From an uncultured Ruminococcus sp. (lineage in GTDB: Bacteria > Bacillota > Clostridia > Oscillospirales > Acutalibacteraceae): a stretch of DNA of 57,878 nucleotides. Below, piece after piece: positions 6,569 through 45,204 of this stretch; position 1 is the stretch's first letter; the number at the start of each line of letters is the position of its first letter. Location: NCBI GenBank assembly GCA_902800005.1, contig CADCCP010000002.1:20799-78676 (forward strand). The letters are read 5' to 3'. A program made the position numbers and the translations under genes. The notes under the pieces were generated by a model that was not told the origin of the DNA, did not search any database, and was given only the letters and a program-made list of their open reading frames with translations.

Positions 6569-6580
6569 TGTTACGAATGA

Positions 6581-26173: not shown

Positions 26174-28252
26174 ATGCAGCTTTGCAATAATGAGTTTAAC
26201 GAGCGTTCAGACATTGATCTGTTCCACAGCGGTGAGCATTACCATGCCTATAACTACATGGGGGCACACAAGGAACATCGTGACGGCGTGGACGGTGTTA
26301 TGTTCAGAACATGGGCTCCCCATGCCAAAAGTGTTTCTATCGTAGGTACTTTCAACAACTGGGACAGGAATGCCAATCCGATGAACTGGACATCAGACGG
26401 CGGTATCTGGGAATGCTTTATTGCTGACATCGTCGGCGATTACTCCATCTACAAATACAGCATAGAGACCTATGACGGCTACACTATGCTCAAATCCGAT
26501 CCGTATGCTTTCCACTATGAGACTCGTCCCAACAATTCATCAGTATTCGTTGACATCGACGGATATGAGTGGCATGACGAGGAGTGGCAGAAGGAAAAGG
26601 CAAAACATGAATCCTACAGCAGTCCTATGAATATCTATGAGCTTCATGCAGGCTCATGGAAAAAATATGCTGACGGCAATTATTTCTCATACGGCAAGCT
26701 GGCTGATGAGCTTATCCCCTATGTCAAGGACATGGGCTATACTCATATCGAATTCATGCCGCTGACGGAATATCCCTTTGATGCTTCATGGGGCTATCAG
26801 GTAACAGGGTATTTTGCCATCACTTCAAGATACGGCAGTCCGTTTGATTTCATGAACTTCGTTGACAGATGCCATCAGGAAGGTATCTCTGTTATCATGG
26901 ACTGGGTACCTGCTCACTTCCCCAGAGATGCTCACGGTCTGGCAAGATTTGACGGAGCTCCCTGCTATGAATATGCAGATTGGCGTAAGGGTGAACACAA
27001 GGATTGGGGTACACTTGTATTTGACTACGGCAGAAATGAAGTCGTCAGCTTCCTTGTATCAAGTGCGATATTCTGGATGGACTACTATCACATTGACGGT
27101 CTGAGAGTAGATGCGGTCGCATCTATGCTGTATCTCGATTACAGCAGGCGTGACGGTGAATGGGTAGCCAATAAGTTCGGCGGTAAGGATAATCTTGAGG
27201 CGGTCGCATTCCTGCACAAACTCAACGAGGCTGCTTTCAGATACTTCCCGAATACCCTTATGATAGCAGAAGAGTCTACGGCTTGGGCAAATGTCTCCAA
27301 ACCTACATATATGGGCGGTCTGGGCTTCAACTACAAGTGGAACATGGGTTGGATGAACGATATGCTTCACTATATATCGCTTGATCCCCTTTACAGACCT
27401 TTCAATCATGACAATCTTACATTCTCGTTCTTCTATGCATTTTCCGAGAACTTTATCCTGCCTATATCGCATGATGAAGTAGTCTACGGAAAGGCTTCGC
27501 TTATAAATAAAATGCCCGGTGACTATGACCTGAAATTCAAGGGCGTGAGAACTTTCATCGCCTACATGATGGCACATCCCGGTAAAAAACTTACTTTCAT
27601 GGGTACGGAATTCGGTCAGTTCAAAGAATGGGATTACTCTATGGAACTTGACTGGATGCTGCTCGAATATCCCAGACACAATGAATTGAAAAACTTCTTC
27701 AGGGCGATAAATCACTTCTATCTTGAGAACAGTCCTCTTTGGGAAGTAGACTATTCTTGGGAAGGCTTCAATTGGATATCAAATGATGACTATACACAGA
27801 GCGTTATCTCTTTCAGAAGAATAGATAAAAAAGGCAATGAGATCATAGCAGTCTGCAACTTCCAGCCGATGCTGCGTGAAAATTACCGTATCGGTGTTCC
27901 GTATGCAGGTACTTACAGTGAAGTATTCAGCACTGATTGGACAGAGTTCGGCGGTTCGGGTGTGTCAAACGGTACCGAGATCAAGTCTGAAGATGAGCCT
28001 ATGCACGGACATGAACAGTCTATGGTACTCACATTGCCGCCGATGTCGGTAATGTACTATAAGTGTGTACGCAAAAAGCCCAAGAGAAAGCCCAGAAAGA
28101 AGAAGGAAGCTATCGAAGGCGAGGCAACAGCAGAGAAGAAGACTACCAGAAAGAGAACTAAAAAGGCTGAAGCATCAGCAGAAACTCCTGCTGAAGAAAA
28201 GCCTAAGAAGAGAACAAGAAAGAAGAAAACCGAAACTGCAGAAGAACAGTAA
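26174..28252 (+). CDS. glgB: 1,4-alpha-glucan branching enzyme with basic C-terminal tail
   Basis: Makes alpha-1,6 branch points in glycogen. It is 692 residues. A CBM48 module is at about 35-120 ([23 protein letters not shown]), followed by a GH13 barrel with the nucleophile Asp in [14 protein letters not shown] (about 311), the acid/base Glu in MIAEEST (about 366) and PISHDEV (about 430). Residues 632-692 form an unusual Lys/Arg/Ala/Glu tail containing [17 protein letters not shown] and KKRTRKKK. It resembles histone H1-like tails and is absent from standard GlgB. It is the first gene of glgB-glgC-glgD-glgA. The gap to glgC is 65 nt with no clear terminator. Confidence 0.96.
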
Positions 28253-28317
28253 CTGACAGCATGAAAGTGCTGTAGAAATAAATCAAATCGTTATTTAATC
28301 AAAGGAGGATAATAATT

Positions 28318-29532
28318 ATGTATCCAAAGCAGGAAGTAGTAGCCATGCTGCTTGCAGGCGGACAGGGCAGCAGACTTGGGGTACTTACTCAGAAACTCGC
28401 AAAACCTGCCGTACCGTTTGGCGGCAAATATCGTATAATTGATTTTCCGCTTTCCAACTGCGTAAACTCCGGTATCGAAGCAGTGGGCGTTCTGACACAG
28501 TATCAGCCCCTTGTACTCAATGAGTATGTGGGCAGCGGTCAGCCGTGGGATCTTGACGGCATGAACAGCGGTGTTAGTGTTCTGTCACCTTATCAGCAGA
28601 TCAAGGGTACAGACTGGTATAAAGGTACTGCAAACGCCATCTATCAGAATATCAACTATATCGACAGATATAATCCCGATTATGTTGTGATCCTCTCAGG
28701 TGACCATATATATAAAATGGACTATTCCAAAATGATCGCTTTCCATAAAGAGAACAATGCAGACTGCACTATCGCCGTTATCGATGTTCCGCTTGAGGAA
28801 GCATCAAGATTCGGTATCATGAATACCAATCCCGACGGCTCTATATATGAATTTGAAGAGAAGCCGAAGCATCCGAAAAGCACAAATGCTTCTATGGGTA
28901 TATATGTATTCAGTTGGGACAAGCTCCGTAAATATCTTATCGAAGATGAGGAAACAGAAGGTTCTGAACATGACTTCGGCAAGAACGTCCTTCCGAGAAT
29001 GCTTGAAGACGGTCAGAGAATGTTTGCCTATCAGTTCGAGGGCTATTGGAAAGATGTCGGTACAATAGACAGCCTTTGGGAAGCAAATATGGACTTGCTT
29101 GATCCGAATGTTCCTCTTGACCTCATGGACGAGAGCTGGAAGATATATTCAAGAAATCCTGTTGTTCCTCCGCAGTACATTGCAGAGACAGCTAAAATAC
29201 AGAATTCACTTGTCGGTGACGGCTGTGATATAAGCGGTGAACTTGAATTTTCTATTCTGTTCTCCAATGTTGTTGTCAAAGAGGGTGCAGTGATAGAGGA
29301 TTCCATCATCATGCCGGGCTGTGTGATCGAAGAGGGTGCAGTCGTAAGATTTGCTATCGTTTCGGAGAATACAGTTATAGGCAAAAATGCCGTTGTCGGT
29401 GCAAGACCTGAAGATATTGAAAACAAAGATGAATGGGGAATTGCCGTTGTAGGCGATAACCTGAAGATCGGTGCAGGTGCAAAAGTTGCACCGAAGGCTA
29501 TGATCGCAGAAGATATAGAGGAGGTTGAATAA
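28318..29532 (+). CDS. glgC: Glucose-1-phosphate adenylyltransferase, catalytic subunit
   Basis: Makes ADP-glucose from ATP and glucose-1-phosphate, the committed step of bacterial glycogen synthesis. It is 404 residues with the nucleotidyltransferase signature [11 protein letters not shown] followed by [34 protein letters not shown] and FEEKP form the sugar-phosphate site, and a left-handed beta-helix sits at the C-terminus. The RBS is AAAGGAGG. Its stop is 1 nt before the glgD ATG, so GlgC and GlgD are made together, as expected for a GlgC/GlgD heterotetramer. Confidence 0.97.
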
Positions 29533-29533
29533 T

Positions 29534-30646
29534 ATGCGTGGCAACAGAATTTTAGGTATAATCTTCTCTAATCTCCATGAAAAACTCATCAGCGAGATCA
29601 CTGAGAAAAGAACAATGGGTGCAGTACCCTACGGCGGACGTTATCGTCTGATAGATTTCCCGCTCTCCAACATGGTGAATTCGGGTATCAAAAAAGTCGG
29701 CGTTCTTACAAAAAGCAATTATCAGTCACTTATGGATCATCTCGGCACAGGCAAGGCTTGGGATCTGTCCAAACAGCGTAACGGTCTGTTTGTACTTCCG
29801 CCTTTCATGGATCCGAATGACTATGCAAACAGGGTTTCAACATTCCGTTCAATAATGCCTTTCCTCGAAAACTCAACAGAGGAATATGTCGTTATCTCTG
29901 ACTGTGATGTTGTATGTAATATAGACTATCAGAAAGTTTTTGCAAAACACGTTGAGAGCAATGCAGACATAACTCTTGTATATAAGAGAGATGTTCTTCC
30001 CGCAAAGCTGCATGATCCGATGGTACTTTCGTTTGATGCAAAAGGCAAGGTAACAGATGTACTTGTAAGCCCGTCCATTTCGGGAACCTGCAGTTACTAC
30101 ATGAACATGATGATGCTCAAGAGAGAACTTCTCATAGAGCTTGTCAATAAGTGTGTGAGCAAGAATACAATGAATTTCAAACGTGATATGATACAGGCAG
30201 AATACAATAACCTGAATATATACGGTTATGAATTCAAGGGCTTTGCTCCGATAATCACATCACCGGCTGAGTATTTCAATGCTAACATGGCACTCATGGA
30301 CAGTGAAGTCCGTGCAGACCTGTTCAGAGGCGACAGACCTATCTATACAAAAGTAAGGGACGATATGCCTGCTAAATACGGTCTTGACTCAAAAGTTACA
30401 AATTCACTTATCGGCAGCGGCTGTGTTATCGACGGTGAAGTTGAAAACTGCATACTGTTCAAGGGCGTTTATATCGGCAAGGGTACAAAGGTATCTAACT
30501 GTGTCATCATGCAGGATACAAAGATCGGTGCAGGCTGTGATCTCAGTTATGTTATCGTTGACAAGGACGTTACTGTGCGTGATGAGAAAACTCTTGCAGG
30601 ACAGCCTTCCTATCCCGTTTATGTCAGCAAACTGAGCGTAGTTTAA
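29534..30646 (+). CDS. glgD: GlgD, regulatory (non-catalytic) ADP-glucose pyrophosphorylase subunit
   Basis: A 370-residue paralogue of GlgC. The N-terminus keeps PYGGRYRLIDFPLSNMVNSG, but the catalytic GGxGxRL loop is replaced by IIFSNLHEKLISEI. This is the normal feature of GlgD and makes it a modulator rather than an enzyme. A beta-helix domain follows from about residue 285. The start is ATG 29534, 9 nt after AGGAGG that lies inside the end of glgC. A heptamer-repeat hairpin lies between it and glgA. Confidence 0.95.
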   Translation: MRGNRILGIIFSNLHEKLISEITEKRTMGAVPYGGRYRLIDFPLSNMVNSGIKKVGVLTKSNYQSLMDHLGTGKAWDLSKQRNGLFVLPPFMDPNDYANRVSTFRSIMPFLENSTEEYVVISDCDVVCNIDYQKVFAKHVESNADITLVYKRDVLPAKLHDPMVLSFDAKGKVTDVLVSPSISGTCSYYMNMMMLKRELLIELVNKCVSKNTMNFKRDMIQAEYNNLNIYGYEFKGFAPIITSPAEYFNANMALMDSEVRADLFRGDRPIYTKVRDDMPAKYGLDSKVTNSLIGSGCVIDGEVENCILFKGVYIGKGTKVSNCVIMQDTKIGAGCDLSYVIVDKDVTVRDEKTLAGQPSYPVYVSKLSVV

Positions 30647-30656
30647 TTAATTATCA

Positions 30657-30698
30657 ATAATGCACGATTTTTCGGAATTGTGCATTATGCATTATGAA
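30657..30698. repeat. Inverted repeat plus heptamer array between glgD and glgA
   Basis: ATAATGCAC (30657-30665) and GTGCATTAT (30680-30688) form a 9-bp stem. The right arm continues as 7-nt units TTGTGCA, TTATGCA, TTATGAA (30678-30698). No T run follows, so it is not an obvious terminator. Confidence 0.7.
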
Positions 30699-30719
30699 TC
30701 CAAAAAGGGAGGTGTGTGA

Positions 30720-32147
30720 ATGAAGTGTCTGTTTGTGACGAGTGAGGCACAGCCGTTTGCAGCATCAGGCGGTCTTGCAGAGGTCTCTGCATCTTTGCCT
30801 CACGCATTGAGACAGCGGCTGATAGGCTGCCGTATCGTCATGCCTTTGTATGAGGGCATATCGGACGAACTCAAAGAAAGTATGCGTTTTCTGACGAGTT
30901 TTTCTGTGCCGGTTGCATGGAGAAGGCAATACTGCGGTGTCTTTGAAGCACGCTTCAACGGTGTTATCTACTATTTTATCGACAATCAGTATTACTTTAA
31001 ACGTCAGGGAATGTACGGGCATTATGACGATGCAGAGAGATTCGCCTTTTTCTCAAGGGCGGTTCTTGAAATGCTCCCTTTCATCGACTTCAAGCCCGAT
31101 ATTATCCACTGCAACGACTGGCAGACGGCTTTAGTGCCTGTTTATTATAATCTTTTCTATTCACAGAACGACTGGTATCAGGGCATCAAAAATGTCTTTA
31201 CCATCCATAATATACAGTATCAGGGAAAATACGGCTCCGAACTTTACGACGAGGTGGTCGGGATACCTCAGCAAAGCCGCTCTATACTTGACTTTGACGG
31301 CTGTATCAATTTTGTCAAGGGTGCTATCGAGACCGCTAACCGTGTCACGACCGTTAGTCCCAGCTATTCATGGGAGATTCGTGATCCGTGGTTCTCAAAC
31401 GGCCTTGATCCGATCCTGAATGCAAGGGCTTGGAAAATCAGAGGCATCCTCAACGGCATCGATACCGTTTCCTACGATCCTTCGGCAGACGGTGACCTGT
31501 ATGCAACTTACTCGGCTGATGACCTTTCCGGCAAGGCGGTCAACAAAAGAAAATTGCAGGAACGTCTGGGACTTTCCGCTGATGCGGGTGTTCCTCTTGT
31601 CGCTATGGTAACAAGGCTCGTTTCCCACAAAGGTCTTGACCTCGTGAAAGCTGCACTTGACCAGATCATGAACGAGGAAGATATACAGTTTGTTATACTC
31701 GGTTCGGGTGAATGGGAATATGAGAGCTTCTTCCGCTCCATGCAGGCAAAATATCCCGGCAGACTTGCAGCTTGTCACGGATTCGTGCCGGAACTGTCAA
31801 GAAAAATATATGCCGCTGCGGATATGTTCCTCATGCCCTCAAAAGCAGAACCCTGCGGTCTTGCACAAATGATCGCTCTCAGATACGGTGCAGTCCCCGT
31901 TGTCAGAGAGGTCGGCGGCTTGCGTGACTCCATACACGACACCGCAGCAGGTGACGGCAACGGCTTTACATTCAAAAATTATGATGCGATGGATATGATA
32001 GATTGTATCAGGCGTGCTATAGCAGCTTACTGGCAGCGTGACGGCTGGAAAGAACTTGTCAAACGTGCTATGAACTGCGACAACAGTTGGGCTCGTTCTG
32101 CAACCGAATATATCGATCTTTATCGTGAAGTGATAGATGAAGGCTGA
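30720..32147 (+). CDS. glgA: Glycogen synthase (ADP-glucose type, GT5)
   Basis: Extends alpha-1,4-glucan chains from ADP-glucose. It is 475 residues with the GT-B fold. The N-terminal motif is SEAQPFAASGGLAEVSASLP, where the family's usual KTGGLADV or KVGGLADV becomes ASGGLAEV; the ADP-glucose-contacting Lys is therefore absent. The C-terminal donor site is intact in outline: FLMPSKAEPCGLAQMIALRYG and REVGGL. The start ATG is preceded by GGGAGG. It is the last gene of the operon and is followed by a terminator at 32205-32245. Confidence 0.93.
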   Translation: MKCLFVTSEAQPFAASGGLAEVSASLPHALRQRLIGCRIVMPLYEGISDELKESMRFLTSFSVPVAWRRQYCGVFEARFNGVIYYFIDNQYYFKRQGMYGHYDDAERFAFFSRAVLEMLPFIDFKPDIIHCNDWQTALVPVYYNLFYSQNDWYQGIKNVFTIHNIQYQGKYGSELYDEVVGIPQQSRSILDFDGCINFVKGAIETANRVTTVSPSYSWEIRDPWFSNGLDPILNARAWKIRGILNGIDTVSYDPSADGDLYATYSADDLSGKAVNKRKLQERLGLSADAGVPLVAMVTRLVSHKGLDLVKAALDQIMNEEDIQFVILGSGEWEYESFFRSMQAKYPGRLAACHGFVPELSRKIYAAADMFLMPSKAEPCGLAQMIALRYGAVPVVREVGGLRDSIHDTAAGDGNGFTFKNYDAMDMIDCIRRAIAAYWQRDGWKELVKRAMNCDNSWARSATEYIDLYREVIDEG

Positions 32148-33375: not shown

Positions 33376-33810
33376 TCAAAGCGACAAAATTTCAATAGCC
33401 TGTTTGTATTTTGCAGTTCTTTTAATTGCATTTCCGTCTATGGTGTCATATCTTGACAAGTCGCTGTTGTGCTTTAAGTCTGCCAGCTTTACAGCCCTTG
33501 CGATAGGGTTGTTTTTTAATCTTCTGACATAATCCATATATTCCAAGCCATCATCATGCGTTAAAAGGGAAAGTGCCGTGATTACTTCATCGGGATAACC
33601 CATGTTTTGCAGGTCTTTCAATGTATAGTCTGTGTCTTCGACAACGTCATGTAAAAGTGCCGTTACGGTCGTGTATTCGTCTTTCATCTGCTCTGCAAGG
33701 TGAAACGGATGGAATATATACGGCAAACCGGTTTTATCGGTCTGATCTTTGTGTGCCTCAAAGCAGAGTTTAAGAGCTTTTTTAGTCAGCGGTGTGTATA
33801 TCATTTTCAT
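33376..33810 (-). CDS. Small HD-domain hydrolase (SpoT/MESH1-like alarmone hydrolase fold)
   Basis: 144 residues made only of an HD domain of the RelA/SpoT hydrolase type. Visible ligands and active-site motifs: a His in [23 protein letters not shown] with HD and ED, and KLADLKHN. The short size and absence of synthetase, TGS or ACT domains match the small alarmone hydrolase group (MESH1-like). (p)ppGpp or NADPH hydrolysis is inference from family. The ATG overlaps the stop of the macro-domain gene as ATGA (33807-33810), giving translational coupling. Confidence 0.8.
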
Positions 33811-34787
33811 GCCCCCAGTAACTTTTGGTCAAATGCAAACAGCGTTTCATTTATCGTGTATATATCATAAATTTCTTTCATCATGAAATACTCTATGATT
33901 ATATCGAATTTACTGCTGTGTGAAAGTGCATAACCTGCTTTCATTAGCATATCTTTTGTTTCGTCAAGCGACAGTTCAAGTGATATTGCAAAAGCTATTG
34001 CCGTTTCTTTTTTAGGCTTGTAAAGGCGGTCGGAACGTATCTTTGAAAACAGTTTCCTGTCGATATTCGCCTTTTTATAGCACTGCACATCTGTCATGCC
34101 TTTTTCATCTATCTTCCGCAAAAGCATTTCTGTGAAACTTTCATCTATCTGATTTTTGATGAAGTCGTCTATATCGTCACTGACGGCACGTTCTTCACAA
34201 ACAGCAGTTCTTGCACAAGTCGCTTTTGCGAAAAATCGGGGTGTACGGTCGATATGTTCATCAACGTAATTTTGATCTATGTATTCACGGATATTATCGG
34301 AATAGTCTTTTGCAAATTCAAAACTTCTCCTGTCGAATATGACAAGAGTTATATCCATGTCATTATCTTTTAAAAACTCTTTGATGACACCGACAGCCAC
34401 ATCAAAAGCCTGCTGTTTGGGATAGCCGTAGACACCGCTTGAAATCAGCGGAAAGGCTACACTTTCACATTGATGTTCTTTTGCAAGTGCAAGGGAATTT
34501 CTGTAACAGGATTGTAAAAGTTCCTTTTCGCCGTGATTTCCGCCATGCCATACAGGTCCTACGGTATGAATGACATATTTACACGGCAGATCATAACCGC
34601 CTGTGATCTTAGCTTGACCTGTTTTACAGCCGTGTAATTTCATGCATTCAAGTAAAAGTCCTTTACCTGCAGCACGGTGTATTGCACCGTCAACGCCCCC
34701 TCCGCCTAAAAGAGAACTGTTGGCAGCGTTGACTATTGCATCACACGGGATATTGGTAATATCGCTTCTTATTATCTTAAAAGGCAT
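33807..34787 (-). CDS. Macro-domain protein with C-terminal helix-turn-helix-like domain
   Basis: 326 residues. The macro domain (1-170) binds or hydrolyses ADP-ribose derivatives: [36 protein letters not shown] and [12 protein letters not shown] are all present. The C-terminal 140 residues carry an all-helical region ([20 protein letters not shown] and [20 protein letters not shown]) that resembles an HTH-like module found alone or with macro domains in Firmicutes. ATG at 34787 is chosen from GTGGAG 9 nt upstream; longer starts lack a binding site. It is coupled to the HD hydrolase, suggesting a shared nucleotide-derived signal. Confidence 0.85.
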
Positions 34788-34857
34788 CGGAAACATCTCC
34801 ACTAAAAAATCTTTTTCTAATGATAGCACATTTTGATATATAATTTGTTAATAAAGA

Positions 34858-34910: not shown

Positions 34911-34943
34911 AAAATTGAAAAGTTTTTTATGGAGGGTATTTTT

Positions 34944-37109
34944 ATGAAAACCCATGAAACGCATTACGGAAAGGAATTATATTATCATGCTGTGAACAGG
35001 CTGTCGCAAAATGACAGGGCGGTCTTATGCACAGCAAAAGCAGATTGGAAAGCACTTTCCGAAAATTCATCGGTAAGTGTACCGTCAAAATATATGCTTG
35101 CATATATTTCAAATCCCGATAAAAATAAACGAAAAGCTGTACAGTTTTATCGTGGAAAGCTGGAAATGGAGTGTTTCAATATAGTTGACGGCAGTTATGC
35201 CGAAAATAAGAAAATGCTTGATTTAAGAAACACGCTGCCTGAAATGAGTTTGACGGACTTTGTGAAATATTTTGCAAATTCTGATTTTGTCATAACAGAC
35301 GAGTATTACAGTTTGTGTCTTGCAGTCAGTCTGAACAAGCCGTTCATTTATTTCGGTGATGACGACAAATCGGCAGATATGCTCACAGAACTCGGACTTA
35401 ATGAAAGAGTTGTCTTTGACACGCTGAATTTTCCCGTGAACAACAGACTTTTACAGCCTGTGGATTTTGACTTTACTAATAAGACCATTACGGAAAAAAT
35501 GTCTGAATGGCTGAAACGTGAGGAAGTTTCAAAGCCTGTCGATAAGGCAGTTACAAGTGTATTGGACTTGAATTTATGTGTAGGGTGCAGTGCTTGTGTG
35601 AACGTCTGTCCGAAGGGGGCGTTGTCTTTAAAGCCCGATAAATACGGATATTACTGCACATCAATAGAGCCTGAAAAATGCATAAACTGCGGTTTGTGTA
35701 CAAAAACGTGTCCTGTTCTTGAGCAGCCTGCAAATAAAAATTTCATCATGCCCGAATGTTACTCTTTCATTACATCTGATGAAGATATTTTGATGAAAAG
35801 TTCAAGCGGAGGTGTGTTTTCGCTGCTTGCAGACGAGGTTTTCAAGCGTGGAGGAGTTGTTGTCGGCGGTGCATGGAAAGATGATCTTACAGTCGGTCAT
35901 ATCATCATAGACAAAAAAGAGGATATGCCGAAGCTGAGAAAATCAAAGTATCTGCAAACTTACATGGGGGATACTTATAAAAAAGTGAAGGAGTATCTTG
36001 AAAACGGCAGATTTGTGTTATTTTCGGGATGCGGCTGTCAGGCGGCAGGCTTGAAGAAATATCTCCGTAAAGAGTATGAAAATCTCTTGATAGTGGATAT
36101 ATTCTGTCATTATTCTCCGTCACCGATGTTTTTCAAGAAGTATGTGCAGGGAAGTTTCAGTAATTTGAATAAATATGAGTTCAGATATAAACATGGCGAT
36201 AACTGCTGGGACTGCCTGACGGTCAAGGCAAATGACGGTGACAATGAAATTGTACGTCATGGCAGTGCGGAGGACGAGTATCAAAGAGTTTTTCATAGTG
36301 AGTTGATGTTGTCGGAACATTGTGCAAACTGCAAATTCCAATCCCGTCAAAGATACGGAGATATATCTTTGGGAGATTTCTGGAATATACAGAAGCATGA
36401 TACAGGCATACCGCATGGAAAAGGTGTATCATGTGTGTTCGTGAACAACGAAAAAGGCAGACGTTTTTTTGAAAGCATACCCGAAAGCATGATTAAATTG
36501 AAGAAGAAAGCCCCTGTTGAATGGGTAGGCGGAAACGGATATATCTATCAGGGAAAGAATAAATTGACACAGAAAAACCGTGATTTTTATAAAGCGATAA
36601 GATTCATGCCTTTTGAGGAAGCGGCAAATTATGCTTTAAAGCCTGACAGGGGTATGAAAGTGACTGTTGATGGAAGCAACCCCTTGCAGTTTGACAGCAG
36701 ATTCCTGCATTTCCGATTTGACGGCAATGTTTGGGAGGAGCATTTCAGAGATAACGCTGTTTATCTGAGAGTGAAAGACGGTCAGGCAAAACCCGGTAAT
36801 TATGCTGTATTGCCGTTAGGAAAAATGCTTGATAAGAATAAAACGTATATGCTTCATGCACGTTTCAAATTCAAGAGTGATTCAAAAGTTCTGTACTTTC
36901 ACATAAAGGACTCCGGAAGCAAGGCTCTCAAAGTTATTGCGACTCACAGGGCGGAAAAAAATCTCGGACAGAACCGGTTTGAGATACATCAGACTTTTCA
37001 GCCGAGTTCCAATATATTTGATGAATTCGTGTTCGGGGCATCTCAGGTCAGGGGAAACGGTGCATTTATTGCGATAGAATATATTTATATAACGGAAATT
37101 GATGATTAA
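34944..37109 (+). CDS. Half pyruvyl-transferase domain fused to 2x[4Fe-4S] ferredoxin and FrhB (F420-dehydrogenase beta-like) modules
   Basis: 721 residues in four parts. Residues 1-200 match the C-terminal Rossmann half of PPT-family proteins (SKYMLAYISNPDKN, FVITDEYYSLCLAVSL), but the catalytic-type His of the TDSYHT motif is replaced by Tyr-Ser and the N-terminal half is missing. Residues about 208-260 hold two [4Fe-4S] motifs (CVGCSACVNVCP and CINCGLCTKTCP). Residues 275-520 are the FrhB_N/FrhB_C fold (SSGGVFSLLADEVFKRGGVV, FSGCGCQAAGLKKYL, and a later CANCKFQSRQRYGDISLGDF). Residues 570-721 form a beta-rich jelly-roll-like module of unknown ligand. ATG 34944 has GGAGGG 7 nt upstream. FrhB-like proteins without F420 are common beside PPT genes in polysaccharide loci; the exact reaction is unknown. 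Confidence 0.85.
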   Translation: MKTHETHYGKELYYHAVNRLSQNDRAVLCTAKADWKALSENSSVSVPSKYMLAYISNPDKNKRKAVQFYRGKLEMECFNIVDGSYAENKKMLDLRNTLPEMSLTDFVKYFANSDFVITDEYYSLCLAVSLNKPFIYFGDDDKSADMLTELGLNERVVFDTLNFPVNNRLLQPVDFDFTNKTITEKMSEWLKREEVSKPVDKAVTSVLDLNLCVGCSACVNVCPKGALSLKPDKYGYYCTSIEPEKCINCGLCTKTCPVLEQPANKNFIMPECYSFITSDEDILMKSSSGGVFSLLADEVFKRGGVVVGGAWKDDLTVGHIIIDKKEDMPKLRKSKYLQTYMGDTYKKVKEYLENGRFVLFSGCGCQAAGLKKYLRKEYENLLIVDIFCHYSPSPMFFKKYVQGSFSNLNKYEFRYKHGDNCWDCLTVKANDGDNEIVRHGSAEDEYQRVFHSELMLSEHCANCKFQSRQRYGDISLGDFWNIQKHDTGIPHGKGVSCVFVNNEKGRRFFESIPESMIKLKKKAPVEWVGGNGYIYQGKNKLTQKNRDFYKAIRFMPFEEAANYALKPDRGMKVTVDGSNPLQFDSRFLHFRFDGNVWEEHFRDNAVYLRVKDGQAKPGNYAVLPLGKMLDKNKTYMLHARFKFKSDSKVLYFHIKDSGSKALKVIATHRAEKNLGQNRFEIHQTFQPSSNIFDEFVFGASQVRGNGAFIAIEYIYITEIDD

Positions 37110-37142: not shown

Positions 37143-37178
37143 AGAAAAGATAATGTATGATGTTTGGAGGATATTCAG

Positions 37179-38243
37179 ATGAGTTCAAAATATGATATAG
37201 GATTGTTCGGACTGTGGAACCAGTGTAACTATGGCAGTATCATCACATACTATGCCCTTTACCGCACACTTGAGAAGATGGGAAAGACTGTTCTTATGAT
37301 AGACAGACCTAACGGCAACACAGCAGAGACCAATACTCATGCTAAGAAGTTTGCTGCAGAGAACTATAAAGGCATTACCATGCCCGTGAACAATGCAGAC
37401 CTTCATCGTCTCAATCAGTGCTGTGATGTGTTCATGACAGGCTCTGACCAGCTCTGGAACTACTCTGTTGCTAAAAATTACGGCAAGCTGTTTTATCTTG
37501 ACTTTGTTGCCGATTTCAAGAAAAAGATCTCTTACGCTACCTCTTTCGGACATGAAATAGACTTTGCACCCGAAAGTCAGAGAAAACTTTTGCAGGGATA
37601 TTTCAAAAGATTTGACAAAATATCCGTCAGAGAAGACAACGGTGTCGATATTTTGAAAAATATATACGGTATCACTGCCGAACAGGTCATTGATCCTGTA
37701 TTCCTGTGTGATAAAAAAGTATATGACGATCTTGCAAACAAATCAAAAGTGAAATTGCCTAAAGAGAAATATATCTTGTCATGTCTTATCGATCCGACAG
37801 AGGACAAGAAAGTCTCTATCAATACGCTTTCAAATGTCATGGACGAAATGAAAACGATCAATCTGCTTGACGGATTCTACTGGATGTCGGACAAAAATGC
37901 CGAAAAGATCGGCATAGAACGTGAAAAGGACGTTGAAACAGCCGATTGGATAAATTATATCAAAAATGCGGAAATTATAATAACGGACTCATATCATACC
38001 ATGTGTCTTGCAATGATATTCAAAAAGAATTTTGTAGCCCTGCCAAATAAGTTCAGAGGCTATTCGAGATTTGACTCCATAGGAAGACTTTTTGATATTA
38101 CGGGAAAGTTTGCTTATGAAGCGGAAGATATGCTGAGAAATCCTGAGATCATGCTTGAACCGGATTATAATAAGATCTCTTCAAAAATATCATCCGAGCA
38201 GAAACGCTGTATAAACTGGCTTTCAACAAGTGTGAAGAGCTGA
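37179..38243 (+). CDS. Polysaccharide pyruvyl transferase family protein
   Basis: Family members (CsaB, WcaK) transfer pyruvate from PEP onto sugars as ketals in cell-surface polymers. It is 354 residues with the whole GT-B-like fold. The N-terminal nucleotide-type loop is GLFGLWNQCNYGSIITYYAL, GSDQLWNYS is near 87, YATSFGHE near 122 and TDSYHTMCLAM near 269; the His is present, so this copy looks active. ATG 37179 has TTGGAGG upstream. It stops 68 nt before the giant fusion gene, which encodes two related domains. The acceptor sugar is unknown. Confidence 0.88.
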   Translation: MSSKYDIGLFGLWNQCNYGSIITYYALYRTLEKMGKTVLMIDRPNGNTAETNTHAKKFAAENYKGITMPVNNADLHRLNQCCDVFMTGSDQLWNYSVAKNYGKLFYLDFVADFKKKISYATSFGHEIDFAPESQRKLLQGYFKRFDKISVREDNGVDILKNIYGITAEQVIDPVFLCDKKVYDDLANKSKVKLPKEKYILSCLIDPTEDKKVSINTLSNVMDEMKTINLLDGFYWMSDKNAEKIGIEREKDVETADWINYIKNAEIIITDSYHTMCLAMIFKKNFVALPNKFRGYSRFDSIGRLFDITGKFAYEAEDMLRNPEIMLEPDYNKISSKISSEQKRCINWLSTSVKS

Positions 38244-38311: not shown

Positions 38312-41300
38312 ATGGAACGATACGATGTAGGTATCATCGGCGTATGGCAGGGCTGTAATTACGGTTCTATGATGACATATTATGCATTGAACCGTGCAGT
38401 GCAGTCGATGGGAAAATCTGTGCTGATGATAGACAAGCCCCTCAACCGTGAGGGGCAGACCGATATAGAACATACCGAAACACATTCAAGACGGTTTGCC
38501 AAAGAGCATTATGAGATAAGTGAAATATATTCGTTGAGTGACCTCAGAAAGCTGAATGAGATATGTGACGGCTTTCTGGTCGGCTCGGATCAGCTTTGGA
38601 ACTACGGTATCAGTCAGAATTTCGGCAAGGCTTTTTATCTTGACTTTGCTGACGATACTAAAAGAAAGATCGCTTATGCGACCTCTTTCGGACATGAAAT
38701 AGATTTTGCATCACCTGAACAGAGGGTAGAGATCGCAAAATATATGAGGAGATTTAATGCGATAGCCGTAAGAGAAGCAGACGGTGTCAGGATATGCCGT
38801 GATATGTACGGCATCGATGCTCAGAGAGTTTTGAATCCCGTATTTCTTGTCGATCCCGATGAAGTTTACAAGCCTCTTATAGAGAAGTCGGGCAGAAATG
38901 AAACAGAGCGTTTCATGGCGGCATATATCCTTGATCCGTCACCTGAAAAGAGAGATGCACTGCTGCATATCTCCGAAAAACTCGGCGGGATAAAGATAAT
39001 AAATCTGCTTGACGGCAGTCTGTGGAGGTTTGATGAAAACAGGAGAAGTCTCGGACTTGACAACTGCATTGAAAATTTGCAGGTCGAGGATTGGCTGTAT
39101 TATCTGAGCCATGCGGAATACGTTGTAACGGATTCCTGTCACGGTGTATGCTTCTCTCTGATATTCAAAAAGAATTTCATGGCGATAGGCAATGTGGACA
39201 GAGGTTTTTCAAGATTCCGTTCACTCGGAAATATATTTGAGTGCAATAACAGGATAGTGAATGAAGCATCAGAGCTGATAAAAAATGATGTCGTATTGCA
39301 GCCTGTGAACTATGACAGGATAGGGGAGATCATGCAGCATGAGAAAAACAGAAGTTTTGAATGGCTGAAAGAAGCTCTTTCATGCCCTGTTGAGCAGACC
39401 GTCAATGTAGTAAGCATACCTAAAATGCCTCAGAAGGAAGTGGATTTTGTGCAGCCCGAAATAGCAAATGAAGATAAGAAGTATGACTTGGGAATAATAG
39501 GCTTATGGTTCGGCAGAAATTACGGCAGTATGGCAACATATTATGCCCTGCATCAGACCGTTGTAAAAATGGGATACTCTGTATTGATGATAGAGAACCC
39601 GCTGAAGCCCGATCATGAGATAATCATGAACAAGTCACACCCGTATAATATAGCAAATGTTTTCTACAAGATAAGCGAGAAGAAGCGTCTCAGCAAGCTG
39701 TATGAATTGAATAAAGAATGCAGGGGATTTCTCGTAGGCTCAGATCAGTTGTGGAATGTAGGCTTGAGCAGACCGTATAAACAAATGTATTTTCTGGGAT
39801 TCGTGGACGAGAATACAAAGAAGATAGCCTACGGTACGTCTTTCGGTAAGCCGTATAAAGGTACTGAAGAAGAAAAAAGAGTCAGTGCCGCAAATCTCAG
39901 GAGGTTTGACGGTGTGTCAGTCAGGGACAGGCTTTCACATGAGATATGCGAGAACAGTTTCGGTGTAAAAGATGTCGTGCAGGTATGTGATCCGACATTC
40001 CTTTGTGATATGGAGGATTACTATACACTTGTGAACATGGCGAAGATCGAAGAAAACGAGCCGTATATACTTGCATATGTGCTTGATCCGAATGCAGAGA
40101 TAGGTCACAGATTGGAGCAGCTTTCTGTTGACAAGAATATGAAGGTTATAGTGCTGCTTGACGAGCCGCCTAAAAATTGGGAAACAAATAAAAACAGGCT
40201 TGACTTGACGGGTAAGGGAAATATCGATGTCAAGAGAGATGTTGACCTGTATGAGTGGATGTGGTACTACGACCATGCAAGCGGCGTATTTACCGACAGT
40301 TTTCACGGCACTATCTTTTCAATAATATTTAAAAAGCCCTTTGTCACCCTCATGAACAGCAAGAGAGGGGCAGAAAGATTTTTGTCGCTTCTTGAACCGA
40401 TAGATTTGAGATACAGGCTTTTTGAGTCGCCTGAGTGTATCAATGAACAGTACGGTTTGTTTGACGGCTGTGATTACGGAGTGCCGTATGAAAAGCTGAA
40501 CAGGATAAAAGAAGATTCTTATAACTGGCTGAAAAATGTCTTGGAGAAGAAGAAAGAACCTGTCAACAGGATCGCACTTTCTGATGAGCAGAATGCACAG
40601 CTTGCAAATGATTTCAACAGATGTAAAACTGTTGTTGAGTATATCAAGTCATACGGCATAGAGAATGTCGTACTTTCGCCGAGCAGGGAAAATATCAATC
40701 TGATAAGGCTTTTCTCAGGCGATCCGTTCTTTAAGGTGCATACGGTGGAGGATGAGAGAAGTGCAGGCTTCTATGCACTCGGACTGTCGCAGAAACTTAA
40801 CAGGAGAGTTGTATTGTGCTGCGGATCGGGTTCGGCAGCATCGGAGTGTCTTGCGGCATTGAGAGAGGCTAAAAGTCAGCATTTGCCGATACTTGCAGTA
40901 ACGGCTGACAAGTCGTATTGTTCGGGACAGGGTGAATGTGTGATACTGCCGCAGAATGACATATTCGGAGATGCCGTGAAAAAGAGTGTGACTATTACAA
41001 GGCAGTTTGACGATTTGTCACAGTGGAAGCTCAGAAGTGATATATGCAAAGCGATACTTGAGCTGGAGCATTTTTCGAGAGGTCCTGTGCATATCAATAT
41101 ACCTGTCGAAAGCAATATAGACCAGTCACTCAATAATGAAGATCTGATTCTCGTAAACAGGAGAACCATAGATAAGATAACAACGATAAGCGGTGATGCC
41201 GCATGGAAGGCAAGAGCTGACAGGCTTAAACAGATAAGAAGGATACTTGTTATTTACGGTCAGAACAGACCGCTTTCAAAGCAGGATGAAGAAGCTGTCA

Positions 41301-42202
41301 ATGAGTTTGCTGAGAGATATAACTGTGTTATCATAAAAGATACGCTTTCAAACCTGAACTGTGATAAGGCATTAGTGCCTAATGATGTGATAAACAGTTT
41401 GAGTGACAGTGATTTCTGCGATACGCTCTGGGCAGATGCTGTTATTACAGTCGGCGGTCAGAGTTCCTTCTCCGATAAGATAGTGAAGAAGCTCATGTCA
41501 AGAGGTTCGCCTGTCGGTCACTGGAACGTGTCTGAGGACGGAGAGATAATTGACATATATCATAATGTACTGAGGGTGTTTGAGAGTTCGGCAGGGATAT
41601 TCTTCCGCAAGTTCGTGAGATTTGCAGGAGACTCCTTCAATGACAACAAGTATTACAGTATATGGAAAGATGAATGTGACAGGTGTGTGCCGCCGCATAC
41701 GGGACATTATTCAAAGTTCTATGCAGTTGAGAGATTTGTGATAGGAATGCCTGATGATATAACGCTGAATGTCGGAACGGGCAAGGCAATGGACTATCTC
41801 AACAGATTTGCATTGAAACCGAGTGTTACGGTGTTTGCGACATCAAGGGCAAACGGCGGATACGGCTCTGTATCTGCATTTTTGGGGCAGGCTGCTGCCG
41901 ACCGTAAGGAAAGTTATCTGCTGATAGACGAAAGTGACTTTATAAAAGACATCAATGCTCTTTGTGTATCGGAGATAAAGAAGAATGTGCATATCATGCT
42001 TCTGAATGACGGCGGAGCATTGGCAGCCAAGAAATTCGGTGAGTATAATATCATACCGCACAAAATGAATGTTGTGGAGGCTATGACAAAGGCTCTCGGC
42101 TTCAAATATATATCTTCGCATAATAAAGAGGAATTTGACGGCAGTATAACGGAGTTTTTTGCCGAAACGGACAGACCCGTTATATTTGAGATATTTGTAT
42201 GA
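38312..42202 (+). CDS. Three-domain fusion: two polysaccharide pyruvyl transferase domains and a MenD-like thiamine-diphosphate enzyme
   Basis: 1296 residues in one uninterrupted frame. PPT domain 1 spans 1-365 (GIIGVWQGCNYGSMMTYYAL; GSDQLWN near 90; TDSCHGVCFSLIF). A 25-residue linker leads to PPT domain 2, 390-745 (GIIGLWFGRNYGSMATYYAL; GSDQLWN near 478; TDSFHGTIFSIIF). Residues 755-1296 match the three-part TPP-enzyme fold of MenD: an N-terminal Pyr domain with VEDERSAGFYALGLS (Glu815, equivalent to the cofactor-activating Glu) and CCGSGSAASECLAALREA; a middle Rossmann domain; and a C-terminal PP domain with YGSVSAFLGQA, LLIDESDF near 1204 and LLNDGG near 1231 as the Mg-diphosphate site. 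The usual GD of that site is ID here. The RBS is AAAAGGGGG. The fusion suggests pyruvate-derived chemistry on a sugar; MenD's menaquinone role is unlikely in this context. Confidence 0.87.
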   Translation: MERYDVGIIGVWQGCNYGSMMTYYALNRAVQSMGKSVLMIDKPLNREGQTDIEHTETHSRRFAKEHYEISEIYSLSDLRKLNEICDGFLVGSDQLWNYGISQNFGKAFYLDFADDTKRKIAYATSFGHEIDFASPEQRVEIAKYMRRFNAIAVREADGVRICRDMYGIDAQRVLNPVFLVDPDEVYKPLIEKSGRNETERFMAAYILDPSPEKRDALLHISEKLGGIKIINLLDGSLWRFDENRRSLGLDNCIENLQVEDWLYYLSHAEYVVTDSCHGVCFSLIFKKNFMAIGNVDRGFSRFRSLGNIFECNNRIVNEASELIKNDVVLQPVNYDRIGEIMQHEKNRSFEWLKEALSCPVEQTVNVVSIPKMPQKEVDFVQPEIANEDKKYDLGIIGLWFGRNYGSMATYYALHQTVVKMGYSVLMIENPLKPDHEIIMNKSHPYNIANVFYKISEKKRLSKLYELNKECRGFLVGSDQLWNVGLSRPYKQMYFLGFVDENTKKIAYGTSFGKPYKGTEEEKRVSAANLRRFDGVSVRDRLSHEICENSFGVKDVVQVCDPTFLCDMEDYYTLVNMAKIEENEPYILAYVLDPNAEIGHRLEQLSVDKNMKVIVLLDEPPKNWETNKNRLDLTGKGNIDVKRDVDLYEWMWYYDHASGVFTDSFHGTIFSIIFKKPFVTLMNSKRGAERFLSLLEPIDLRYRLFESPECINEQYGLFDGCDYGVPYEKLNRIKEDSYNWLKNVLEKKKEPVNRIALSDEQNAQLANDFNRCKTVVEYIKSYGIENVVLSPSRENINLIRLFSGDPFFKVHTVEDERSAGFYALGLSQKLNRRVVLCCGSGSAASECLAALREAKSQHLPILAVTADKSYCSGQGECVILPQNDIFGDAVKKSVTITRQFDDLSQWKLRSDICKAILELEHFSRGPVHINIPVESNIDQSLNNEDLILVNRRTIDKITTISGDAAWKARADRLKQIRRILVIYGQNRPLSKQDEEAVNEFAERYNCVIIKDTLSNLNCDKALVPNDVINSLSDSDFCDTLWADAVITVGGQSSFSDKIVKKLMSRGSPVGHWNVSEDGEIIDIYHNVLRVFESSAGIFFRKFVRFAGDSFNDNKYYSIWKDECDRCVPPHTGHYSKFYAVERFVIGMPDDITLNVGTGKAMDYLNRFALKPSVTVFATSRANGGYGSVSAFLGQAAADRKESYLLIDESDFIKDINALCVSEIKKNVHIMLLNDGGALAAKKFGEYNIIPHKMNVVEAMTKALGFKYISSHNKEEFDGSITEFFAETDRPVIFEIFV

Positions 42203-42226: not shown

Positions 42227-43327
42227 ATGAGTACAGAAAAAAATAAAAAGCAGGCGGCACTTGAAACTCTGTGGTTCATGGCAGATTACGGGGACATCAT
42301 ATCTGCATTTGCCCTTGCCAAGACCGTTGAAAATGCAGGTTACAATGCGGTGCTTTTGAACAAGCCGTTCCGTTTCCGGACAGATACGGATACATCAGAG
42401 AAAAGTGCAGCAGGAAAATTTATATACAAAAACTGCATTGTCGCACCTGTTTGCTATAACTCCGGTGACTTTTTGAAGATAGAGAAAGAAACGAATGTAT
42501 ATATCACGGGTACACATCCGCTGTGGAGTTATGCCCTTTGCGGAAAGGAAGCAAATTTCCACTATTACTTTGAGGACGTTTCCGACAGCAAGAAAAAAAT
42601 ATCCTATGCAACGGGCTTCGGCGGAGATTATACAGGTCCTGACGGTGAAGATAAAAAGCTGTGCATATACTACTTGAAGAGATATGCAGGGGTATCTGTG
42701 GGAGATTACAATGATGCGGAGATAATGGGACAGCATCTTGGAATTGAGCCGAAAGTGGTATTGAATCCGATATTGATGTGTGACAGGAGCGTGTTTGAGA
42801 AGGCATCAGAAAATGCTCCCGCAAGCCGTGCCGAAACTGCCGACAGCTTTGTATTTGCATACATCAAAAACTGCAATGCACGAAAAAGAGAACTTGTCGT
42901 GCGTGGCAATGAGATAATTGCGGAAAAGTCATCAAATCCCATGAGAACACTTGTTGGCTTGGGCGATACAGATAAGTCAAAGTCAAAGATAAAGTTGGAA
43001 TGTTCACCCAACAACAGCGTAGAGGATTATCTGTATTATATCATTCACTCGGAATTTGTGATAACGGACGATCTCAGCACAGTATGCTTGGCAGTGCTTT
43101 TCAATAAGCCGTTTGTATTCACCGGCTCGGAAACTGATGCAGTGACAAGACAGGTATATGCAACACTGTTTTCACTGGGCATAGATGAAAGGATAGTTCT
43201 TGCAGAAGAAGACTACAGGACAAGAGAATATCTTTTCAGGATGCCTGTAAGATACAATAAAGTGAACAAACTGCTTGCAGAACAGCGTGAAGCATCTGAA
43301 AACTGGCTGAAAAGCTATCTTGTATAA
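42227..43327 (+). CDS. Divergent pyruvyl-transferase-like protein, probably non-catalytic
   Basis: 366 residues with the length and layout of the PPT proteins next door, but key motifs have decayed. The N-terminal loop reads LWFMADYGDIISAFAL instead of LW..CNYGS..TYYAL. GSDQLWN becomes GTHPLWSY near 95, and TDSYHT becomes TDDLSTVCLAV near 279, losing the His. The frame is intact and the ribosome binding site good (GGAGGAGG), so it is expressed rather than a pseudogene. It starts 24 nt after the fusion gene and 17 nt before the glycosyltransferase. A scaffold or regulatory subunit role is inference. Confidence 0.75.
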   Translation: MSTEKNKKQAALETLWFMADYGDIISAFALAKTVENAGYNAVLLNKPFRFRTDTDTSEKSAAGKFIYKNCIVAPVCYNSGDFLKIEKETNVYITGTHPLWSYALCGKEANFHYYFEDVSDSKKKISYATGFGGDYTGPDGEDKKLCIYYLKRYAGVSVGDYNDAEIMGQHLGIEPKVVLNPILMCDRSVFEKASENAPASRAETADSFVFAYIKNCNARKRELVVRGNEIIAEKSSNPMRTLVGLGDTDKSKSKIKLECSPNNSVEDYLYYIIHSEFVITDDLSTVCLAVLFNKPFVFTGSETDAVTRQVYATLFSLGIDERIVLAEEDYRTREYLFRMPVRYNKVNKLLAEQREASENWLKSYLV

Positions 43328-43344
43328 AATCGGGGGTGTGTGAT

Positions 43345-45204
43345 ATGGGTAATATAAAATTCAAAGTTCAGAATATCATTCTGAAAAGCAACAAGTATCT
43401 TGATGACCATATAGGAATGATGTACAGGGGCGACAGCTTCAGCTACAACAAAATAAAGTCTGCGTTCACACTGAAAGCAGGAGATTTTGTGGAGTTCTTC
43501 ACATACTTCAACAGCTTTTCAATAGGCAAGTGGAAAAAATATACCAATGCAGGTGACATAGAACTGAATCTCGTCTGCAAGGGCAAGTTTAAAATAACTA
43601 TGTTCGGACATTACCATGACGGAGCGGAAATCCTGAAAGAGTTCTACCCTGCCAAAGAGTATGATCTGAAAGAAAAGACTGAAATATCTATATTTGTTCC
43701 CAGACAGATAAGGGCTACTACCGTAGGATTTCAGATAGATGTGTATGACACGGGCGATGAAAACGGTGAAGATTTCTGTTTCTATTCCGGCTACTGGTCA
43801 ACGATAGTTGACGACAGCAAGATAAATGATGTAAGAATATCGATAGTAACCGTTACTTTCAAGAAAGAGGACTATATCACAAGCAATATAAAGATTCTTG
43901 AAAGAGAGCTTTTCTATACAGACGAGCCTGCAAAAGATCATATCCGTGTGAGGATAATAGATAATGACGGCGGAAAGGTTCTTGACAGCGAAAGCATGAT
44001 AAGTGATTATGTGCATTACTCGCCTAATGCGAATGTCGGCGGTTCGGGCGGTTATACAAGAGGCATGATAGAGAGTATAAATGATACCGAATACAATCCT
44101 ACACATGTTCTTTTGATGGACGATGATGTTATCGTTCTGCCGGAGAGTTTTATAAGGACATATTCACTTCTGGCACTTGTCAAGAAAGAGTATGATGACA
44201 GATTCGTCAGCGGAGCGATGCTTTTCTATGAGAGAATGGACACCCAGCATGAAGATGTCGGATACGTTCATGATGACGGTTCATACGGTCCGAACAAGCA
44301 TGATATGCACTTGGAACAATGGGATCACGTTCTTGAAAATGACGAGGACTTTAAATATCACAAAAATTCCTATGCAGGCTGGTGGTACTGCTGCATACCC
44401 GTTAAGAAGATAGACAGGGCACATCTGCCGATACCGCTTTTCATCAGAGGTGATGATGTTGAATTCAGCCTTGCGAACAATGCGGAATTCCTTTCACTCA
44501 ATGGTATATGTATATGGCATAAGGGTTTTGCAAACAAGTTCAATGCAAATCTTGAACTGTATATGGTACACAGAAACAGCCTTATCATTCAGGCAATGAG
44601 CGGTATATGCAAGGGTATAGACTTCATGCAGAGGATAGACGGATTTTTCTGGAAGGAGCTGAAACGCCTTTCATATAACAACTGTGAACTTTTGCTTGAT
44701 GCGATAGAGGAGTTCTGCAACGGGCCGGAATTTCTGTATGAACCGCAGGGAGAGGCTATCATGAAAGCCCATGCAAAGAAAAATGAAGTCATGAAGCCTG
44801 CTGTATCGGAGTATCCGAATATCCCCATAGATTTTGACAGCATTTACAGAATGGCTGACAAGCCTTTGACAAAATTGCAGTCGGCTATTTACCACAAGAC
44901 AAGGAACGGTCACAGATTGCCTGACTTCATGCTGAAAAATACGATAGCTGTAACGGCATATGACTGGTTTGACGATCCCGCAAAGCAGTATCTTGCAAAA
45001 GAGATACTTGTAGTAAGTCCCTTCGATCATACGGCATATCTGAGAAAGCGTGATAAAAAGCGTTACAGACAGCTTGTAAAACGACGCAACAGGATAATGA
45101 ATTATTATAAGCACAATAAAGACAAGATAGAAGAATCCTACAGGGAAGCCGCAAAGACACTCAAAACAGAGGCTTTTTGGAAAAAATATCTTAAAATGGA
45201 GTAA
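43345..45204 (+). CDS. GlfT2-like family 2 glycosyltransferase
   Basis: 619 residues. The first 160 form a beta-rich N-terminal domain. A GT-A fold follows that resembles the galactofuranosyltransferase GlfT2: VGGSGGYTRGMIES, HVLLMDDDVIVLPES (metal-binding DDD near 259) and LPIPLFIRGDDVEFSL near 365 with the catalytic-type Asp, then WHKGFANKF. A helical C-terminal region completes it. ATG 43345 is favoured over a GTG three codons earlier because GGGGGTG is 6 nt before the ATG. It ends the PPT unit. No UDP-galactopyranose mutase is in the window, so the sugar donor is uncertain. Confidence 0.83.
   Translation: MGNIKFKVQNIILKSNKYLDDHIGMMYRGDSFSYNKIKSAFTLKAGDFVEFFTYFNSFSIGKWKKYTNAGDIELNLVCKGKFKITMFGHYHDGAEILKEFYPAKEYDLKEKTEISIFVPRQIRATTVGFQIDVYDTGDENGEDFCFYSGYWSTIVDDSKINDVRISIVTVTFKKEDYITSNIKILERELFYTDEPAKDHIRVRIIDNDGGKVLDSESMISDYVHYSPNANVGGSGGYTRGMIESINDTEYNPTHVLLMDDDVIVLPESFIRTYSLLALVKKEYDDRFVSGAMLFYERMDTQHEDVGYVHDDGSYGPNKHDMHLEQWDHVLENDEDFKYHKNSYAGWWYCCIPVKKIDRAHLPIPLFIRGDDVEFSLANNAEFLSLNGICIWHKGFANKFNANLELYMVHRNSLIIQAMSGICKGIDFMQRIDGFFWKELKRLSYNNCELLLDAIEEFCNGPEFLYEPQGEAIMKAHAKKNEVMKPAVSEYPNIPIDFDSIYRMADKPLTKLQSAIYHKTRNGHRLPDFMLKNTIAVTAYDWFDDPAKQYLAKEILVVSPFDHTAYLRKRDKKRYRQLVKRRNRIMNYYKHNKDKIEESYREAAKTLKTEAFWKKYLKME

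Follow-up and report, generated by a model that had tools for sequence, protein, structure and literature searches.

Pyruvyl transferases of the PPT family draw their C3 unit from phosphoenolpyruvate (PEP), and such described members as CsaB of Paenibacillus alvei and Pvg1p of S. pombe belong to Pfam family PF04230 and carry an arginine and a histidine motif. MenD-type enzymes are known from vitamin K synthesis, and the known MenDs are tetramers. They decarboxylate 2-oxoglutarate on thiamine diphosphate (ThDP) and add the C4 unit to isochorismate, which itself bears an enolpyruvyl ether (partly PMC12312563). The closest described system that combines the two families, and the only one that our literature search found to pair them, is that of Paraburkholderia megapolitana, where, as far as the available part of the account goes, a PPT and a SEPHCHC synthase are proposed to build a 4-oxoheptanedioic group between them (PMC13291983). 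No paper on a fusion of the two families was found by title in the same search. Here we describe such a fusion, encoded in a stretch of 57,878 nucleotides (‘the window’; positions 20,799 to 78,676 of contig CADCCP010000002.1, GenBank assembly GCA_902800005.1) from an uncultured Ruminococcus sp. Two PPT domains (PPTa and PPTb) are joined to a MenD-like domain that has lost most of the conserved residues of its cofactor and substrate sites, and we favour, with fair rather than high confidence, the reading of the whole as a bifunctional pyruvyl transferase that carries a MenD-derived, non-catalytic scaffold and acts, probably, on a galactofuranose glycan.

The frame, at positions 38312 to 42202 of the forward strand, runs uninterrupted for 1296 amino acids. 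PPTa occupies residues 1-365 (38312 to 39406), PPTb residues 385-752 (39464 to 40567) and the MenD-like domain residues 757-1296 (40580 to 42199), and PF04230 is recognized in two stretches of the fusion (1.6e-60; 205.8 bits against a gathering score of 25.3). The source genome (G000; 2.4 Mb in 165 contigs) is 89.47% complete. A search of 99 relatives recovered the full length, residues 1-1296, from six further genomes, each belonging to this genus, at 84-93% identity; an assembly artefact or a chance frame is thereby ruled out, and the architecture is real. An earlier, sequence-only reading of this DNA had proposed one 1296-codon frame joining two PPT domains, each with GSDQLWN and TDSxHG motifs, to a MenD-like domain, had suggested searching genomes for the same domain order, and had named separate genes as the finding that would overturn it: the motifs can be read directly in the frame, the Pfam and NCBIfam matches agree with the domain assignment, and the three-domain frame is whole in seven genomes of the genus, the window's included.

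The C-terminal domain is, from its profile matches and predicted fold, related to MenD. TPP_enzyme_N was matched at residues 773-869 (4.5e-12), and the best NCBIfam match was the menD model TIGR00173 (residues 771-1195, 3.2e-53), at 181.5 bits, which is below its cut-off of 244.2. Acetolactate synthases and YerE-type enzymes belong to the same ThDP superfamily (the YerE sequence was not compared), but the best acetolactate synthase model reached only 35.0 bits, and an enzyme of the acetolactate-synthase type was rejected; the keto-sugar analogy that the sequence-only reading drew with YerE is not refuted by these scores. When the sequence was compared with those of the PDB by phmmer, the top 16 of 25 matches were MenDs (1.5e-24 to 6.1e-8), followed by BbmA at 8e-4, while the PPT part had no match up to an E-value of 10. 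Homology extends across the domain to the MenDs of Listeria (9e9b), B. subtilis (2x7j) and E. coli, with which it shares the activating glutamate. An AlphaFold2 model built on a 15-row alignment contained three domains, with a mean predicted local distance difference test (pLDDT) score of 84.2 and a predicted template modelling score of 0.79, and the top Foldseek matches in the PDB were the MenDs 3lq1, 2x7j and 9e9b (E 1e-22 to 1e-23). The three-domain ThDP-enzyme fold that the sequence-only reading asked structure prediction to confirm is thus predicted; however, with a template modelling score of about 0.5 and a root mean square deviation of about 18 Å against known MenDs, the modelled domains are not placed as in those structures, and their placing is unreliable. 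Low confidence in the pocket loops (114-123 and 480-495 in the model of the window domain) was considered as a sign of erosion and rejected, as an intact control from the genus (locus L026) is low at corresponding places (111-114, 477-491); only residues 424-427 are low in the window domain and not in the control.

The catalytic site was compared with the contact residues, and in the numbering, of the Listeria MenD paper, as given in its available part (PMC12312563), across 49 aligned MenD rows: nine from the window clade (the seven three-domain fusions together with L022 of genome G045 and L023 of genome G027) and 40 others. At the position of the GDLS motif the window reads D1206-E1207-S1208-D1209; Gln119 and Ile436 are replaced by V877 and G1183, the isochorismate residues Ser34 and Arg35 by R792 and E793, and the 2-oxoglutarate residues Ser408, Arg412 and Arg431 by G1157, D1161 and S1178. 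All nine clade members have lost Gln119, Ile436, Gly458, Asp459 (changed to Glu), Leu460, Ser461, Ser34, Arg35 and Arg412; position 1206 is Asp or Glu in nine of nine, 1207 is Glu in nine of nine and 1209 is Asp or Glu in eight. Outside the clade Gln119 and Ile436 are each present in 40/40 rows, the GDLS glycine in 37/40 and its aspartate in 39/40, against 0/9 each within it. (Ser408 is Gly throughout the clade, but also in five of eight intact fusions.) Sixty columns are conserved in at least 90% of the outside rows, and 14 of these are lost in every clade member, concentrated at the site itself (5/6 known contact columns against 9/54 other conserved columns, Fisher p 0.0019), while five control groups lose between none and four. 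The ‘near-complete Mg-diphosphate site’ of the sequence-only reading is therefore not there, and the ‘Gly-to-Ile’ change that it saw in the GD motif is instead Gly to Asp followed by Asp to Glu; on these losses an active ThDP enzyme was rejected as the leading view of the window domain, and catalysis appears to have been lost. The same reading had held that the lack of a plausible cofactor site would count against it: by sequence most of that site is gone, but the activating Glu that it placed near residue 815 is present as E815, aligned with the catalytic Glu56 of MenD.

These losses define a lineage. When 64 genomes of the genus were searched with a profile, 39 had some match at E≤1e-10, and 19 of the matches were strong and MenD-like (655-878 bits); the remaining rows listed, at 41-57 bits, were partial and are probably general ThDP enzymes. 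The strong matches comprise the seven whole three-domain proteins, a PPT-PPT-MenD protein broken by contig ends (G027), a PPTb-MenD protein (G045), eight PPT-MenD proteins and two stand-alone genes. The GD motif persists in all eight PPT-MenD proteins and in the stand-alone genes as GDLS or GDLA, with SDLS in three fusions and GELS in the stand-alone L068. In an IQ-TREE phylogeny the nine proteins with an altered site form one clade (100/100) inside a 17-row clade of PPT-MenD fusions of the genus (100/100); their sister is L026/L029/L030 (99/97), and their stem is long, at 1.14 changes per column where that of the sister has 0.28. Across 21 orthologue pairs, the median ratio of nonsynonymous to synonymous change (dN/dS) is 0.077 for the MenD domain (0.040-0.104), compared with 0.031 for that domain in three intact relatives (3 pairs), and it is 0.056 for PPTa and 0.023 for PPTb (20 usable pairs per PPT domain). 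None of the nine genomes has a stop within the match, and 344 of 539 MenD-domain positions are invariant in seven orthologues. The MenD domain of the clade is thus relaxed but constrained, and these values fit a pseudoenzyme with a retained role better than they fit decay.

The PPT domains, in contrast to the domain that follows them, retain the PEP-site motifs of their family: by motif and family alignment (in which the CsaB sequence was not included), PPTa has its arginine in AVREADG and its histidine in TDSCHG, and PPTb in SVRDRLS and TDSFHG (VRE/VRD and TDSxH in general form). In the available part of the CsaB study, the substitutions R148K/Q and H308A/R were inactive (PMC10435577). PPTa and PPTb differ from CsaB and Pvg1p in being arranged in tandem and fused to a MenD domain, and they have a Ser two residues before the His, where CsaB, according to the same partial source, has Arg (R306; PMC10435577). 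On these motifs the pair is predicted to form a bifunctional pyruvyl transferase. PPTa and PPTb would each transfer a pyruvyl unit from PEP to hydroxyls of a surface-glycan precursor, probably one with galactofuranose added by the GlfT2-like enzyme encoded in the same operon, while the MenD-derived C-terminus, no longer a ThDP enzyme, would be retained for a structural role, keeping the PPT domains joined and perhaps offering a docking site to the FrhB protein, the diverged PPT and the glycosyltransferase of that operon.

The ancestor of such a protein would have been a PPT-MenD fusion with an intact site, in which the PPT drew a C3 unit from PEP, the MenD domain extended that unit with a decarboxylated 2-oxo acid by 1,4-addition (a carboxyvinyl, or enolpyruvyl, ether being a possible acceptor, which would give a C7 keto-diacid), and a dehydrogenase reduced the resulting ketone. 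In the window lineage, the operon would then have come to hold an FrhB gene of the flavin/Fe-S type and no dehydrogenase, and the MenD site would have eroded, in an order of events that we can only infer.

Several observations weigh against the scaffold reading. E815 and Asn434 (N1181 in the window) are kept in nine of nine clade members; the Mg ligand Asn486 is Asn or Asp depending on a one-residue shift of the alignment, and so is possibly kept, and the change of Asp to Glu at the other Mg ligand is conservative. The AlphaFold2 models do not discriminate on activity, given the low loops of the intact L026. Synonymous divergence approaches saturation, with medians of 1.1-1.6 for the MenD parts, and L041 carries an in-frame deletion midway through its MenD domain, which implies that this domain tolerates loss. 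In the available part of the CsaB study, H308K and H308S were still active (PMC10435577), so that activity cannot be judged strictly by the His motif. Three intact fusions (L025, L027 and L031) are also without a Zn-alcohol dehydrogenase (Zn-ADH), as are their genomes at E≤1e-20; and as the nine clade members are one lineage, residue loss, FrhB gene and absent dehydrogenase amount effectively to one comparison.

The kept glutamate lends itself to two other explanations. The domain might have been re-tooled, with the acid-rich loop that replaces GDLS and the kept Glu forming a new metal or sugar site for a different chemistry; the retention of E815 and N1181, the acidic residues at 1206, 1207 and 1209, the dN/dS of about 0.08 and the invariant positions would all be expected of it. 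However, pocket residues are gone from both the PYR and the PP domains, L022 and L023 carry deletions in loops around the active site, and the dN/dS lies above that of the three intact relatives, so we regard this explanation as unlikely, if worth keeping in mind. The sequence-only reading had instead preferred a domain that is still a ThDP-dependent carboligase with unusual cofactor binding, and the Glu, the predicted MenD fold and the conservative changes at the Mg site can be cited for it; but Gly458 has become Asp or Glu, which would set a carboxylate near the diphosphate site, and Gln119, Ile436, Leu460 and Ser461 are changed in all nine along with the substrate residues Ser34, Arg35 and Arg412, which makes an active carboligase improbable. 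A decaying passenger without function would account for the long stem, for the deletions in L022, L023 and L041 and for a dN/dS above that of PPTb, yet it fits poorly with values of 0.04-0.10 in 21 pairs, with nine genomes free of internal stops and with the same frame in seven of them, and we hold it to be quite improbable. Service in menaquinone synthesis, to which only the rank of TIGR00173 among the NCBIfam models would point, has practically no likelihood: the isochorismate and 2-oxoglutarate residues are replaced, the domain stands apart from 13 menaquinone-type MenDs in the tree (100/100), and menB was found in 0/64 genomes of the genus against 11 of 14 control rings (menB being the only other men gene searched for), which, within the completeness of the genomes, rules the role out.

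The partners proposed for the scaffold are encoded in the same operon. The fusion is the third of five co-directional genes separated by gaps of 8-68 bases. The first (34929 to 37109, forward strand, 726 amino acids) encodes a C-terminal PPT remnant, two 4Fe-4S motifs and the N and C domains of FrhB_FdhB, with a tail that weakly resembles a carbohydrate-binding domain (0.082); the second (37164 to 38243, forward, 359 amino acids) is a stand-alone PPT, PPT0, with PEP-site Arg and His. Downstream of the fusion lie a diverged PPT of 366 amino acids (42227 to 43327, forward), in which SVGD and TDDLST replace the Arg and His motifs, and a GlfT2-like galactofuranosyltransferase of 622 amino acids (43336 to 45204, forward), whose matches to Glft2_N (4.6e-7; 30.3 bits against 26.1) and GlfT2_domain3 (2.6e-6; 27.7 against 27) lie just above the Pfam cut-offs. 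A UDP-Galp mutase is encoded elsewhere in the genome (427.7 bits, above cut-off), and 5,6-pyruvylated galactofuranose is known from Klebsiella K12, according to the part of the source available (PMC6801904); together with the GlfT2-like gene, these suggest a glycan with galactofuranose as the target. The glycan setting that the sequence-only reading had proposed was right.

The closest relatives of the FrhB gene (61-100% identity; that of G010 is cut at a contig end) occur in exactly the nine clade genomes, while some FrhB match at E≤1e-60 occurs in 39/64 genomes of the genus; in seven of the nine it immediately precedes PPT0, and in L022 it immediately precedes the fusion, while for G021 and G027 the connection of PPT0 or PPTa with the MenD part is presumed across contig ends. 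Of the eight intact PPT-MenD genes, in contrast, five have a Zn-ADH gene beside them (L024, L026, L029, L030 and, as a DUF6270 fusion, L032); at E≤1e-20 homologues were found in six of 64 genus genomes, namely those five and G035 (a copy at a contig end), and in 0/9 clade genomes. Neither a short-chain dehydrogenase/reductase (SDR) nor a Zn-ADH nor an aldo-keto reductase (AKR) is among the five operon genes of the window (SDR and AKR were searched for in the operon, not elsewhere in the genome). As this contrast between classes rests on one clade, it rests on one event. In G018 (L028) a PPT-FrhB-tail protein precedes the pseudo-PPT and GlfT2 genes, in the slot that PPT-MenD fills in relatives, so that one PPT module seems to take either MenD or FrhB as its partner; in L028, L185 and L186 of the same genus it is joined to an FrhB rather than a MenD partner. 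On another contig, the intact-class genomes G007 and G028 encode a PPT-FrhB-tail protein whose PPT is complete.

Several features of these genes were recorded in their own right. The FrhB gene of the window retains only the C-terminal half of a PPT, with TDEYYS where active PPTs read TDSxHG, and its paralogues L185 and L186 have a whole PPT; the erosion is uneven, since the orthologue L040 reads TDNYHA there. The diverged PPT is conserved in the operon, similar genes near intact MenD or FrhB genes read TDDIYG or TDDYYG, and it would seem to be an older pseudo-PPT. In L038 (G030), and only there among the loci examined, the FrhB gene upstream is separated from PPT0 by a 321-amino-acid frame (15138-16103). 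PPT-FrhB-PPT proteins of about 1,325 amino acids adjoin GlfT2-like genes in L042 (2068-6039) and L043 (4805-8788), and open frames of similar size surround PPT matches in other genomes of the genus. In the window itself, a divergent Macro-domain protein (33807-34829, reverse strand) adjoins the operon, a glycogen-type set (branching enzyme, two hexapeptide-repeat nucleotidyl transferases and starch synthase) lies upstream at 26174-32147, and a pyruvate phosphate dikinase-like gene is found at 12306-14933.

The intact family around the window protein is more interesting than the window protein itself. A scan of named genomes gave 570 candidates, of which the best 80 loci were examined: many of these are menaquinone clusters, 39 of which served as a control, three are the genus itself, 15 entered a glycan set, and 23 with no clear or only a partial neighbourhood were left uncounted. 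The glycan set of 27 consists of those 15 with L033-L035 and L174-L182, and 18 of its members (all but L174-L182) are in the tree. There, a side of 36 rows (100/100), composed of the genus and stand-alone MenD-like genes and including the window domain (100/100), stands apart from the menaquinone-type rows (12 chosen loci and E. coli, the latter on a very long branch of 3.39); it holds Bifidobacterium oedipodis, B. ramosum, Eisenbergiella tayi, Diplocloster modestus, Draconibacterium and others, and the neighbours examined on it include glycosyltransferases and flippases. An SDR gene lies within two genes in 17/27 of the glycan set (one of these, in L034, being a 135-amino-acid fragment) and a PPT gene in at least 17/27 (at least 21 over the whole stretch), against none of either in the control; the PPT count is a lower bound, because the profile missed a Diplocloster PPT (L072) that Pfam found, and is partly circular, because the set was drawn up after the neighbourhoods had been inspected. 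The Eisenbergiella and B. ramosum stretches hold a PPT and no SDR, and L174 encodes (4225-7365) a fusion, found in another family, in which an aldo-keto reductase, a 4Fe-4S domain and a MenD-like domain make up 1046 amino acids beside an FrhB-PPT fusion. Three kinds of carbonyl reductase (Zn-ADH, SDR and AKR) therefore accompany MenD-like genes. At the level of the class, 10 of 391 sampled genomes, including that of the window, match at E≤1e-40. Two different MenD-like genes occur in one stretch of B. oedipodis (L057, 7974-9755 and 14090-15853), and in L176 (6771-7649) and L034 (4956-5786) a protein of 276-292 amino acids with marginal similarity to TPP_enzyme_N/MenD adjoins the MenD-like gene.

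Among the stand-alone rows Arg412 is kept in 19/19 and Arg431 in 6/19, a pattern from which 2-oxoglutarate would be a likely donor for some of these enzymes, with a different 2-oxo acid serving others. Among described systems, the intact relatives have their best precedent in the megapolipeptin pair of P. megapolitana, in which, in the available part of the account, the same two families are proposed to act together (PMC13291983); it differs in belonging, as two enzymes, to a lipid-peptide pathway and not to a glycan cluster, and from the window in that the MenD domain of the latter lacks a catalytic site (a comparison by description only). This pair and the neighbourhoods of the intact relatives bear out the suggestion of the sequence-only reading that PPT and ThDP chemistry belong together. 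A more ambitious proposal, which we put forward tentatively and regard as rather doubtful, is that the PPT sets a C3 enolpyruvyl-type unit from PEP on a surface sugar, that the MenD-like enzyme extends this unit with a decarboxylated 2-oxo acid, forming a carbon-carbon bond in a Stetter-type reaction, that the ketone is reduced by an SDR, Zn-ADH or AKR, and that FrhB is a reductive counterpart on the same PPT product. In the window lineage the MenD domain would have become a non-catalytic scaffold within a giant fusion whose operon holds the FrhB partner; the whole would be a widespread and little-recognized form of glycan tailoring. The product expected of the MenD-like step may be a branched keto-diacid ether, for example a 2-O-linked 4-oxoheptanedioate.

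For the genus, the finding amounts to a graded series, from PPT-MenD fusions with an intact site to a clade in which the cofactor site has been lost and the domain nevertheless conserved; no paper on ThDP pseudoenzymes was found by title in the literature search. For the family, the intact relatives place MenD-type enzymes in surface-glycan clusters of Bifidobacterium, Eisenbergiella, Diplocloster, Bacteroidales and rumen Clostridia, with a PPT, a reductase or both near the MenD-like gene. If the reading of these clusters as formers of a carbon-carbon bond is true, gut bacteria would carry acidic sugar decorations for which carbohydrate analysis has not looked, and the PPT, FrhB and MenD fusions would name the candidate enzymes.

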